This document shows, one piece after another, positions 2,371 to 25,731 of a stretch of 58,825 bases of DNA. The stretch covers positions 1 through 58,825 of the forward strand of contig JAICWV010000003.1 in assembly GCA_025966365.1 (NCBI GenBank), written 5' to 3'. The DNA comes from Chloroflexota bacterium. Its GTDB lineage: Bacteria > Chloroflexota > UBA5177. A program made the position numbers and the translations under genes. How positions within the stretch are numbered: the first letter of the stretch is position 1; each line of letters starts with the position of its first letter. The notes beneath the pieces are model-generated. The model had not been told where the DNA came from. It did no database searches and saw only the letters and a program-made list of their open reading frames with translations.

Positions 2371-3747
2371 GTGTTACGAGTTGAAGGTCCGGCGGTCAAA
2401 GACGAGCAGGGCCGCCACGTCCAGCTCAAGGGGCTCGGCCTCGGCGGCTGGATGAACATGGAGAGCTTCATTTCGGGCTATCCGGGAAACGAGTCGGGAT
2501 GGCGCGCCGCTCTACGCGTCGCTCTCGGCGAGGAGCGGTACCGATTCTTCTTCGACCGGTTCCTGGAGTACTTTTTTGAGGATGCCGATGCCGCGTTCAT
2601 CGCGTCCCTCGGGCTCAATTGCCTTCGCCTCCCGATCAACTACCGGCACTTCGAGCGCGACACCGAGCCGTTTGTCATCCGTGAGGAGGGATTCAGGCAT
2701 CTCGATCGGGTGGTCGATCTATGTGCCCGGCACGGCCTTTATACCGTGATCGATCTGCATGCCGTTCAGGGCTATCAGAACCAGGACTGGCACTCGGACA
2801 ATCCGGGATTTATTGCTTCGCTGTGGACGCAGCGACAGTTTCAAGATCGCGCGGCCGGCCTGTGGGAGGCGATCGCACGGCGCTACCGCGGCAACCGCTG
2901 GGTCGCCGGGTACAACCTGATCAATGAGCCGAACGCTCCAGACGCGGAAACATACCTGGGTGTGCACAGGAGGCTGTACGAGACCGTTCGCGACGTGGAC
3001 CCGGACCACCTCGTCTTTATCGATGCCGACGCCTACGGCAGTAACCTCGACCGCTTCGACGAAGTCTGGCCCGATACCGTATATAGCATCCATGACTACG
3101 CCTATTGCGCCTTCAACTTTGGAGGAGAGTATCCCGGTGAAACGCGCGGAGTGTGGTGTGATGAGGCGTGGGCGGAGCGGCACTTCCTGAAAAAGTCGAG
3201 GTTTGCCCGCGAGAATAATGCCCCTGTCTGGGTCGGGGAGTTCGGGGCCGTCTTTTCCGGCGCTCCGGTCCGGGATGCCAACCGCTGCCGCATCATTCAC
3301 GACCAGATCGGCATTTACGACCGACACGGTGCGGGCTGGTCGCTCTGGACGTACAAGGATATCGGGAAGATGGGCCTGGTTTACCTTCCTCCAGACTCTC
3401 CGTACATGCAGAGGCTTCGGTCCGGTCTGGAGCGAAAGGAGCGCATGGGAGTCGACTCCTGGACGAGCACGGGAGTGGAAGTAGCCGAAGCGACGGACCC
3501 GCTTCTCGAGCTCATTTCGCGAGAGTTTCCCGACAGGACATCGCTTGGTTTTGATCCGGTGTGGATGGTGGAGCGGGTGGTTCGCAGCATCATGCTCTCC
3601 CAGGCGCTGGTGCCCGAGTTTGTCGATGCTTTTGCCGGCCTCTCGGAGTCGCAGCTGGACGCGCTCCTGCAGTGTTTCCGCCTGCAGAATTGCGTCGTTC
3701 GTGAGCCGCTGGCCAGGGTTCTTGCCGGTCAGCCGATCGGGGCGTGA
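2371..3747 (+). CDS. Glycoside hydrolase family 5 (cellulase/exoglucanase-like)
   Basis: A 458-residue single-domain GH5 TIM barrel. The N-terminal signature GLGLGGWMNME is followed by LNCLRLP, the acid/base in LINEPN (Glu186) and the nucleophile in WVGEFG (Glu290). The start chosen is GTG 2371, preceded by GGAGG at 2361-2365 with 5-base spacing. An upstream in-frame GTG at 2341 lacks a good ribosome site. No signal peptide is seen, so it probably acts inside the cell on imported oligosaccharides. GH5 covers beta-glucan, mannan and related substrates, and the exact one cannot be read here. It lies divergent from the GH2 gene and convergent with the cupin isomerase, suggesting a small hemicellulose or glucomannan locus. 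Confidence 0.88.
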   Translation: MLRVEGPAVKDEQGRHVQLKGLGLGGWMNMESFISGYPGNESGWRAALRVALGEERYRFFFDRFLEYFFEDADAAFIASLGLNCLRLPINYRHFERDTEPFVIREEGFRHLDRVVDLCARHGLYTVIDLHAVQGYQNQDWHSDNPGFIASLWTQRQFQDRAAGLWEAIARRYRGNRWVAGYNLINEPNAPDAETYLGVHRRLYETVRDVDPDHLVFIDADAYGSNLDRFDEVWPDTVYSIHDYAYCAFNFGGEYPGETRGVWCDEAWAERHFLKKSRFARENNAPVWVGEFGAVFSGAPVRDANRCRIIHDQIGIYDRHGAGWSLWTYKDIGKMGLVYLPPDSPYMQRLRSGLERKERMGVDSWTSTGVEVAEATDPLLELISREFPDRTSLGFDPVWMVERVVRSIMLSQALVPEFVDAFAGLSESQLDALLQCFRLQNCVVREPLARVLAGQPIGA

Positions 3748-22245: not shown

Positions 22246-22341
22246 CAAGGCCATTCCAGCAGGAATCAGCCTGTAGAATGTCCCACACCGACCGCTACGC
22301 GCGGCCGGCACGTGGTCTTTCGGTCCTAGCGGGAGTTGTTC

Positions 22342-23736
22342 ATGTCGTTACCCAGCACCATTGGCGAGCTGCGAGCCAGCGAGTATCAGGTCCTTCCCAT
22401 CCGCGACGAGATGCGCAAGAATCTCATCGCGAAGATCGAAGCCGACGAGCCCCTGTTCCCCGGAATTGTCGGCTATGAGGAAACCGTACTTCCACAAATC
22501 GAAAATGCCATCCTTTCCGGGCAGGACATGATTCTGCTGGGAGAACGGGGCCAGGCCAAAACCCGCCTTGCTCGCGCCCTAATCTCCCTCCTGGACGAGC
22601 AGGTACCGGTCATCGAAGGCTGTGAGATCAACGACGATCCGTACGATCCTATTTGTGCCACGTGCCGGGAGAAGGTGCAGTCGCAGGGGGACTCGGTCGC
22701 CATTACGTGGATCGGTCGCGACCAGCGGTACGGAGAGAAGTTGGCCACGCCGGATACCACCATCGCCGACCTTATCGGCGAGGTAGACCCGATCAAGGTT
22801 GCCGAGGGTCGGTATCTCTCTGACGAGTTCGTCATCCATTACGGTCTGGTGCCGCGCACAAATCGCGGGGTTTTTTGCATCAATGAGCTCCCCGACCTGG
22901 CCGAGCGCATTCAGGTCGGCTTGCTTAACATCATGGAAGAGCGCGACGTTCAGATCCGAGGATTCAAAATCCGCCTTCCGCTGGACATTTTGCTCGTCGC
23001 CAGCGCCAATCCCGAGGACTATACCAATCGCGGCCGCATCATCACGCCACTGAAAGACCGCACCGGGTCCGAGATCCGGACGCACTACCCGCGTACCATC
23101 GAGCACGAGATCGACATTATGGAGCAAGAGGCCCAGGCGTTCGACAGCGCGGGGTACACAGTTCAGGTCCCGGGCTACATCAAGGAGATCCTCGCCGAGA
23201 TGACGCATCTGGCGCGCAAGAGCCCGGACATCAGCCAGCGATCGGGAGTGAGCGTGCGAGTCTCGATCGCGAACTACGAGAATGTGACCAGCAACGCGTT
23301 CAAGCGGGCCATTCGCCTGCATGAGTCAAACGTGGTGCCGCGAATTTCCGATCTCTCCGCGGTGACGGCATCGACTGCAGGGAAGATTGAGCTGGAAACG
23401 CTCGGCGACGTCAACGAGGACAAGATCATCGACAAACTGATCCAGGGCTCGATCGTCAATGTCTTCAATCGCTACTTTCTGGTGCAGGAGTTTGACGACC
23501 TGCTCAGAAGCTTTGAAAACGGGCTGAGTATCGACGTCTCCGACGATATGCCGTCGCTGGAGTATGCGCAGAAGGCATTTCGCGTAAACGGATTGAAGTC
23601 GGCGGTGTCGAAGCTGGGAGCGCAGGGTAACCCGGCGGCGATTGCTTCCGGCACCGAGTTCATCCTTGAAGGGCTTCATCTCAATCGCAAGCTCAACAAG
23701 GACCGCACCGAGGGGCGCGCTCACTACCGGAGGTAG
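22342..23736 (+). CDS. MoxR/magnesium-chelatase-like AAA+ ATPase
   Basis: A 464-residue ATPase. The P-loop is GERGQAKTRLARAL (MoxR form, Ala before Lys), Walker B is VFCINELPDL and sensor 1 is LLVASANPEDYTNRGR. An insertion has CATC (DPICATCREK). MoxR ATPases pair with VWA proteins to load metals or remodel partners; the VWA gene follows directly. Start ATG 22342 has GGGAG 6 bases upstream; TTG 22336 is less likely. A TAGAAT -10-like box lies near 22273. The client is unknown. Confidence 0.88.
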   Translation: MSLPSTIGELRASEYQVLPIRDEMRKNLIAKIEADEPLFPGIVGYEETVLPQIENAILSGQDMILLGERGQAKTRLARALISLLDEQVPVIEGCEINDDPYDPICATCREKVQSQGDSVAITWIGRDQRYGEKLATPDTTIADLIGEVDPIKVAEGRYLSDEFVIHYGLVPRTNRGVFCINELPDLAERIQVGLLNIMEERDVQIRGFKIRLPLDILLVASANPEDYTNRGRIITPLKDRTGSEIRTHYPRTIEHEIDIMEQEAQAFDSAGYTVQVPGYIKEILAEMTHLARKSPDISQRSGVSVRVSIANYENVTSNAFKRAIRLHESNVVPRISDLSAVTASTAGKIELETLGDVNEDKIIDKLIQGSIVNVFNRYFLVQEFDDLLRSFENGLSIDVSDDMPSLEYAQKAFRVNGLKSAVSKLGAQGNPAAIASGTEFILEGLHLNRKLNKDRTEGRAHYRR

Positions 23737-23739
23737 GGC

Positions 23740-25731
23740 ATTTCTCGATACACGTACTCGCGGTGGGACAGGACCCAGAGCGTCGAGGGATTTGATCCCG
23801 ACGAGTTGATGGAGGCCCTGTCGGACGACCTCATGTCGGACGGCGACATCTGGAATGCGCTGCAGCGGATCACTCGCTGGGGATTGCAGCGAGAGAACGA
23901 GCCCGCGGCGCCGGGCTTGCAGAGTCTCGTCCAGCGGCTTCGGTCGCAGCGGCAACAGGAGCTGGAGAAGTACAATCTCGATTCGCTCATGGATGACGTC
24001 CGCGAGCGCGTCACCGAAATCGTTCGAGCGGAGCGCGCGGGCATCGAACGAAAGGTTGCCGGGGCAGACGCGGGAGGTGATGCCGCGCTGCGCGCGATGC
24101 TCGAGGCTATTGCGAGCCGAAAGCGCGAATTTCTGGACACGCTGCCGGACGATCCCGGAGCCGCAATCTCTGCGCTGGCCGACTATGAATTCCTCGACGA
24201 GAGCGCCAGGACACAATTCGAGGCGCTGGAGGCGATGCTGGAGGAGCAGGTACTGCAGAGCCGCTTTCAGAACATGCAGGAATCTCTGGCCGCGCTTGGC
24301 GGTGCAGAGCTTGGCGACTTGAAGGCGATGATGCGCGACCTGAACTCCCTTCTCCGTGATCATCTGGACGGCCGGGATACCGACTTCGACCGGTTCATGG
24401 AGCAGCACGGCCGTTTTTTTCCGGGTGCCGGTTCCTTCGACGAGATTGCGTCCCAGCTGCACGATCAGTCACAGCAAATGGAATCGCTGTTGCGGAGCAT
24501 GTCACCGGAAATGCGCCGCTCACTCGACGACTTGATGAAGGCGCTTCTGCGGGATGAAGAGCTGCAAGATGAGCTGGCTACCATGGCTGAGATTCTGGAA
24601 TCGGTGGCCCAGTTCAGACGCCCGCCGCCGGGCTATGACTTTTCCGGCCATGAGTCCATCACTCTGGAAGAGGCTCTCAGGCTGATGCGGAGGCTGCACG
24701 ATCTCGACCTGCTGGAGCGCGAGATGCGCCGCGCGCAGGACACCGGCGACCTGGAGACCCTGGACCCGGCACGCGTTGCCGATCTGATGGGAGATGACGC
24801 AGGACAGGCCGTCGACCGGCTGAAGCAGCTGAGCCAGGTCCTGCAGGATGCCGGGTATATCCAGGGAGACGGCGGGGCCCTGACTCTGACTGCCCGGGGG
24901 ACGCGGATGATCGGCCAAAAGGCCCTCCAAGACATCTTCCAGCACCTGAAGCGTGAAGCCTTTGGTGGCCACGAAGTCTCGCAGCATGGACTTGGCGGCG
25001 ACCGAACCGATGATGTGAAAACCTATGAATTCGGCGACAACTTTCTGCTCGACATGTCCCGCACGGTCATGAACTCCGTCCGCAGAACCGGGGGTGGACG
25101 CCCGGTCAGCGTTCAGGTGGAGGACTTTGAGGTGTACCGGACCGAGCAGCTCTCCCAGGCATCGACAGTCCTGATGCTGGACATGAGTCGCTCCATGCCA
25201 CTCCGCGGCTGCTTCGTCGCTGCCAAGAAAGTAGCCCTGGCGCTGAATAGCCTCATTCGGACTCAGTTCCCGCGAGACAACCTGTACATCATCGGATTCT
25301 CCGACTTCGCCCGGGAACTTCGGCCGGAGAGTCTGCACCAGATCGCGTGGGGTGACTACGTCTACGGGACCAATATGCAGCACGGTTTCGTCATGGCCCG
25401 CAGGCTGCTCGGTCGGCATCAATCGGGTACGCGGCAGATCATCCTCATTACCGACGGCGAGCCCACGGCGCACCTCGAGGGCGACCGCGTGGAGTTTGCC
25501 TATCCGCCCACATTTCGCACCTTTCAGGAAACACTGCGAGAAGTGTCCCGCTGCACCCGGGAGGGCATCGTGATCAACACTTTCATGCTGGAGCGCAGTC
25601 ACTACTTGACCGACTTTGTCAATCAGATGACGCGCATAAACCGGGGCCGAGCTTTCTTTGCCACTCCCGAGCGGCTCGGCGACTACGTGCTGGTGGATTA
25701 CGTTGCCTCCAAGCGGAAGCGGATCAATTGA
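23740..25731 (+). CDS. VWA-domain protein, probable AUU start
   Basis: A 663-residue partner of the preceding ATPase. The middle (about 60-400) is helical and charged. The C-terminal von Willebrand A domain has the MIDAS motif LMLDMSRSM (Asp481) and ITDGEPTAH. ATG 23809 or TTG 23806 would remove RYTYSRWDRTQSVEGFDPDE, which looks like the normal N-terminus of this family. The only upstream codon able to start is ATT 23740, with GGAGGT at 23729-23734 and 5-base spacing. The frame is the same as the ATPase, whose TAG lies just before. Confidence 0.85.
   Translation: MSRYTYSRWDRTQSVEGFDPDELMEALSDDLMSDGDIWNALQRITRWGLQRENEPAAPGLQSLVQRLRSQRQQELEKYNLDSLMDDVRERVTEIVRAERAGIERKVAGADAGGDAALRAMLEAIASRKREFLDTLPDDPGAAISALADYEFLDESARTQFEALEAMLEEQVLQSRFQNMQESLAALGGAELGDLKAMMRDLNSLLRDHLDGRDTDFDRFMEQHGRFFPGAGSFDEIASQLHDQSQQMESLLRSMSPEMRRSLDDLMKALLRDEELQDELATMAEILESVAQFRRPPPGYDFSGHESITLEEALRLMRRLHDLDLLEREMRRAQDTGDLETLDPARVADLMGDDAGQAVDRLKQLSQVLQDAGYIQGDGGALTLTARGTRMIGQKALQDIFQHLKREAFGGHEVSQHGLGGDRTDDVKTYEFGDNFLLDMSRTVMNSVRRTGGGRPVSVQVEDFEVYRTEQLSQASTVLMLDMSRSMPLRGCFVAAKKVALALNSLIRTQFPRDNLYIIGFSDFARELRPESLHQIAWGDYVYGTNMQHGFVMARRLLGRHQSGTRQIILITDGEPTAHLEGDRVEFAYPPTFRTFQETLREVSRCTREGIVINTFMLERSHYLTDFVNQMTRINRGRAFFATPERLGDYVLVDYVASKRKRIN

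Follow-up and report, generated by a model that had tools for sequence, protein, structure and literature searches.

An AUU codon as the probable start of the VWA-domain gene in a MoxR/VWA pair from a Chloroflexota genome

This study was concerned with where translation begins in a VWA-domain gene whose reading frame encodes a conserved segment upstream of every ATG, GTG and TTG. The gene lies on a 58,825-nucleotide stretch of Chloroflexota DNA (contig JAICWV010000003.1), referred to here as the window. An earlier note on this DNA, made from the letters alone, had proposed that the gene starts at the rare codon AUU. The best reading of the present analysis is that translation begins at AUU 23740, with a probability of about 0.83, because the codon occupies the position of the ATG in relatives, the strongest Shine-Dalgarno (SD) sequence of the family precedes it, the alternatives are lacking, and AUH and CUG starts seem to be accepted in the lineage.

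The gene pair and the segment upstream of the canonical starts

The VWA gene (23740 to 25731 on the + strand, stop codon included) encodes 663 amino acids when translated from the AUU. It was recognised by Pfam VWA_2 (PF13519, 1.5e-6), and a MIDAS-like DMSRS in its translation (within LDMSRSM) fits the DxSxS motif. The adjoining gene, at 22336 to 23736 on the + strand, encodes a MoxR-type AAA+ ATPase (ORF from TTG 22336 with an in-frame ATG at 22342; Pfam AAA_5, PF07728, 2e-8), which also matched magnesium/cobalt-chelatase ATPase models weakly in the profile search. The two form a MoxR/VWA gene pair, similar to the RavA-ViaA and NorQ-NorD operons in that an AAA+ ATPase gene is followed directly, in the same order, by a VWA-domain gene. 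Unlike those systems, the window pair is recognised by general Pfam domains only, and no NCBIfam family covering the VWA protein was matched.

The MoxR gene ends at a TAG (23734-23736, + strand) that shares its phase with the VWA frame, a point absent from the earlier note. From this TAG the VWA frame is open through the stop ending at 25731, and no ATG, GTG or TTG occurs in it between the TAG and TTG 23806. The first canonical codons are thus TTG 23806 and ATG 23809 (23806 to 23811, + strand), located 22 and 23 codons after the ATT. These are the starts that an automatic caller would pick, and the loss of 22-23 residues predicted by the earlier note agrees with their positions. The proposed start, ATT (23740 to 23742, + strand), is the sole start-like codon 5' of the conserved N-terminus, as had been claimed, and it is followed by the codons TCT CGA TAC ACG TAC TCG CGG TGG GAC AGG ACC CAG.

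The conserved N-terminal segment RYTYSRWDRTQ (23746 to 23778, + strand) was compared with that of genome G001, which holds the nearest relative at 61% identity. The peptide is identical in the two, while six of its 11 codons differ, and all six differences are synonymous; if single bases changed at random, the chance of such a pattern would be about 1e-4. The segment upstream of the canonical starts is therefore, to judge from its pattern of substitution, translated. In addition, the family alignment shows the motif RYxYSxWDGTQ to be conserved across the phylum, which bears out the view that this is the usual start of the family.

Start codons and Shine-Dalgarno sequences among homologues

Homologues were sought in 400 genomes of the phylum, and the comparison covered 92 distinct start regions, the window included. 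A canonical start (ATG, GTG or TTG) is present at or before the motif in all 91 other homologues, mostly at the same place, and the window copy is the only one of the 92 that has none. None of the 91 starts at the position of ATG 23809, which excludes the first of the two refuting outcomes that the earlier note had named. It is thus highly improbable that translation begins at TTG 23806 or ATG 23809 and that the conserved upstream segment is a relic. No canonical codon comes earlier in the frame, but neither of the two is preceded by an SD at suitable spacing, no homologue begins at either of them, the upstream segment changes only synonymously, and a start at this point would delete the conserved N-terminus.

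The alignment with relatives suggested in the earlier note was carried out at the junction of the two genes (window, TACCGGAGGTAGGGCATTTCTCGATAC; G001, TACCGGCGGTAGGCATGCGATAT; G003, TATCGCAGGTAGGGTATGTACTTT; G004, TTCCGTCGGTAGATAATGCGCTAT), and homologues were found to start at the ATT position with ATG or GTG. ATT 23740 is aligned with the ATG of the three nearest relatives (G001, G003 and G004), and the GTG of three other homologues (G025, G042 and G054) stands at or beside this position. The TAG-NNN-ATG of G003 and G004 and the TAG-NN-ATG of G001 match TAG-GGC-ATT in the window, and therefore ATT 23740 is most simply explained as an ancestral ATG, in its original place, altered at the third base. 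The window also carries a 3-base insertion, TCT, directly after the ATT. AUU was found at the VWA start in none of the 91 other homologues, and the three nearest relatives have ATG; on this comparison the AUU is private to the window lineage and its relatives keep AUG. A search of the GTDB contig collection for a close relative with the VWA protein found none.

The shared phase of the two genes allows a different explanation, in which the UAG of the MoxR gene is read through to give a MoxR-VWA fusion. TAG 23734 is in frame with the VWA gene in the window, and the same is true in G003 and G004; however, in both of these relatives the VWA gene has an ATG of its own. Homologue frames are mostly 660-800 codons in length, which is too short for a fusion (a few are of 1,000-1,230 codons), and a fusion would have no need of GGAGGT. 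Read-through was rejected as very unlikely because in the nearest relative, G001, the two genes are out of phase and the VWA gene has its own ATG.

The SD sequence GGAGGT (23729 to 23734, + strand) is located within the final MoxR codons CGG AGG TAG, and the gap between it and ATT 23740-23742 is exactly 5 bases, as the earlier note had stated. Its duplex with the anti-SD has an energy of -10.9 kcal/mol, the strongest of the 92 start regions; none of the other 91 homologues reaches this value, the three nearest relatives having -6.4, -4.0 and -3.1 kcal/mol and the family a median of -5.6 kcal/mol. The SD core differs from that of G001 by one base, which changes the codons of an R-R pair from CGG CGG to CGG AGG. 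In the window genome, SD matches of at least six bases at suitable spacing occur at 1.3% of random in-gene positions versus 14.5% of called starts. The pairing of weaker start codons with stronger SDs is a known compensatory trend (PMC5622118). Folding of the start site was no better than that of shuffled sequences (z 0.13) and indicated no special RNA structure. A small CUACC-GGA-GGUAG hairpin does cover the SD; it follows from the Y-R-R-stop codons and was not counted as evidence.

A young pseudogene that has recently lost its start codon would also account for an AUU private to the window genome. However, the frame is intact and full-length, the N-terminus is conserved, and the SD is stronger than those of the relatives, not weaker, which makes recent loss of function as improbable as a start at the downstream codons.

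Rare start codons elsewhere in the genome and its lineage

Start codons of the AUH and CUG type were found at several other genes. The infC gene of the window genome (L072, G000:C213:14626) starts at ATA behind GGAGG, and the infC genes of family members start at ATC or ATA in frames offering nothing else. In most of the other genomes of the phylum that were examined (L067-L086) the likely infC start is ATA, ATC or ATT.

A codon-usage scan for coding upstream of canonical starts was applied to 998 gene-like frames in 1.22 Mb, about a third of the window genome, and triage by eye left three further good cases. First, a permease gene (SO_0444/SaoE-like; L137, G000:C84, - strand) starts at ATC 12753 behind AGGAGG. 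Its homologues (L237, L238 and L239) have at the same residue ATC in G001 and G003 and ATT in G004; a GTG stands two codons upstream in G001, inside the SD, and six codons upstream in G003. These three loci share identical stretches with JAJPIP010000066.1 (G001), JANWJD010000078.1 (G003) and DHWR01000036.1 (G004; Chloroflexi bacterium UBA5177), identities that place the window's family in Chloroflexota; the Proteobacteria label of JAJPIP01 is probably mistaken. Secondly, in an SMC gene (L182, G000:C53, - strand), the conserved N-terminus (LQLKSLYIAGFKSF) has no possible start near it other than CTG 3532, which stands behind GGAGG. For this CTG there is no canonical codon from the upstream stop to +40 in G000 and G004, and in G005 the nearest upstream canonical codon is 51 codons off; G003 has the CTG with a TTG five codons before it, and the starts in G001 and G002 are canonical. 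Third, a gene for a NAD-dependent epimerase/dehydratase (L177, G000:C48, - strand) has CTG 6263 directly after a TAA, and the first canonical codon follows only 90 codons later. The CTG is also present in G001 and G002, where a GTG lies four codons further downstream but is less likely to be the start. When 400 kb of G005 were scanned as well, the only additional candidates (glmU-like and dihydroorotase-like) were ambiguous.

These cases, judged from sequence comparison, suggest that the window lineage accepts AUH and CUG starts and uses them repeatedly in the same genome. A larger claim, that CUG and AUH starts are in wider use in this class-level Chloroflexota lineage (near Chloroflexi bacterium UBA5177) than in known bacteria, is tentative and rather doubtful, the cases having been drawn from the window lineage alone with triage by eye. 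If it were true, the AUU of the VWA gene would belong to a larger set of starts, possibly responsive to IF3.

The repeated use of such starts also bears on the possibility of a consensus or assembly error within 23740-23742, the true codon being ATG or GTG. The window genome is the single assembly of its genus that was compared, a metagenome bin of 253 contigs, and the ATG of the nearest relatives lies exactly at the ATT position. However, no other member of the family has so strong an SD, and the site has also gained the 3-base insertion, as would be expected of a weak codon that has been compensated, and the 663-codon frame is otherwise intact. The other non-canonical starts of the genome are conserved in other genera and are thus not sequencing errors, which weakens the general argument that the ATT must be one. 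The earlier note had named such an error as a second way in which its proposal could fail; the strong SD and the conserved AUH and CUG starts make it less likely, and it retains a small share of the probability, larger than that of any other alternative considered.

An altered initiator tRNA was also considered as a cause and was rejected: the initiator tRNAs of relatives are normal, with a CAU anticodon and a GGG/CCC anticodon stem. In the window genome assembly only an elongator tRNA-Met was found; an initiator tRNA(fMet) carrying the GGGCTCATAACCC stem typical of such tRNAs was not, and its absence probably reflects an assembly gap.

Three separate observations were made at other loci. A possible ATA start at 3001 (ATA ACC ATT TGC, [M]TICTSCG) belongs to a cyclase-like zinc-ribbon protein (L214, - strand), and a possible start at ACG 234 or ATT 237 to a phosphoesterase that has a signal peptide (L211, + strand). 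An AhpD-like protein (L152, - strand) has an in-frame TGA at 3308-3306 within a CxxC-like motif (IECEYUGVQRSAQAG), with the frame open on both sides. No Rfam match was found near this TGA, and the gene may encode a selenocysteine protein or carry a point mutation.

Possible initiation at the AUU and comparison with known systems

Initiation at this site may be envisaged with ordinary components. The initiator fMet-tRNA(CAU) would read AUU by a third-position mismatch, and the duplex between GGAGGU and the anti-SD would hold the 30S subunit at the codon. Ribosomes terminating on the MoxR gene, whose stop is 3 nt before the AUU, would be delivered to the site by coupling. The yield of VWA protein from AUU would be below that from AUG, and IF3, whose own gene starts at AUA, would reduce initiation at the AUU, so that VWA synthesis would fall below that of MoxR and respond to IF3. 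Such tuning of VWA synthesis by IF3 is plausible by analogy with known systems. In E. coli, for example, an increase in IF3 is inhibitory to initiation at non-canonical codons and, where there is no SD, to re-initiation (PMC2268962). A shift from AUG to AUU accompanied by a stronger SD would be consistent with weak selection for reduced output and also with compensated, near-neutral drift; the latter is as tenable as the former because the AUU is not conserved even within the family.

The AUU starts of Escherichia coli infC, the gene for IF3, and of pcnB are known cases, and the rare start codon of infC is widely kept among bacteria and is autoregulatory. The VWA gene resembles infC and pcnB in having an AUU behind an SD, and infC of the window lineage likewise starts at AUH. 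In contrast to E. coli infC, the AUU in the window is confined to a single genome, and the VWA protein is not a translation factor. To our knowledge, verified AUU starts outside infC are few. Thus, each additional case supported by comparison is of use in defining the conditions under which AUU starts work, and the location of the family's strongest SD next to a stop codon is a clear pointer in this respect.

In Staphylococcus aureus, cvfC1 (AUU) and ccpN and infC (AUA) all have extended SDs, and the AUU and AUA sites tested gave about 10% of the output of AUG, with up to 30% in one case (PMC13009471). The VWA gene is similar to cvfC1 and ccpN in combining an AUH start with an unusually strong SD, and a reduced output is predicted for it. 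However, the S. aureus starts were established with ribosome profiling and reporters, and related bacteria share them, whereas the VWA start is proposed from comparison and its relatives use ATG. The same study reported an AUA start of citZ only for the NCTC 8325 lineage (PMC13009471).

In Streptomyces, an IF3-repressed GTC start of sigR sets the ratio of sigma to antisigma factor (PMC5472188). The likeness to the window is a non-canonical start in one of two partner genes that automatic annotation misplaces. The effect on the ratio was shown genetically in Streptomyces, while a corresponding effect on the ratio of MoxR to VWA may only be suggested by analogy. The AUU of the VWA gene very probably adds one more example to a rare but established phenomenon that gene callers overlook. 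Such callers assume ATG, GTG or TTG and would remove 22-23 conserved residues from the VWA protein. Non-canonical starts common to several genera of an uncultured lineage suggest that these starts are under-counted, and they provide candidate sites for control by IF3.
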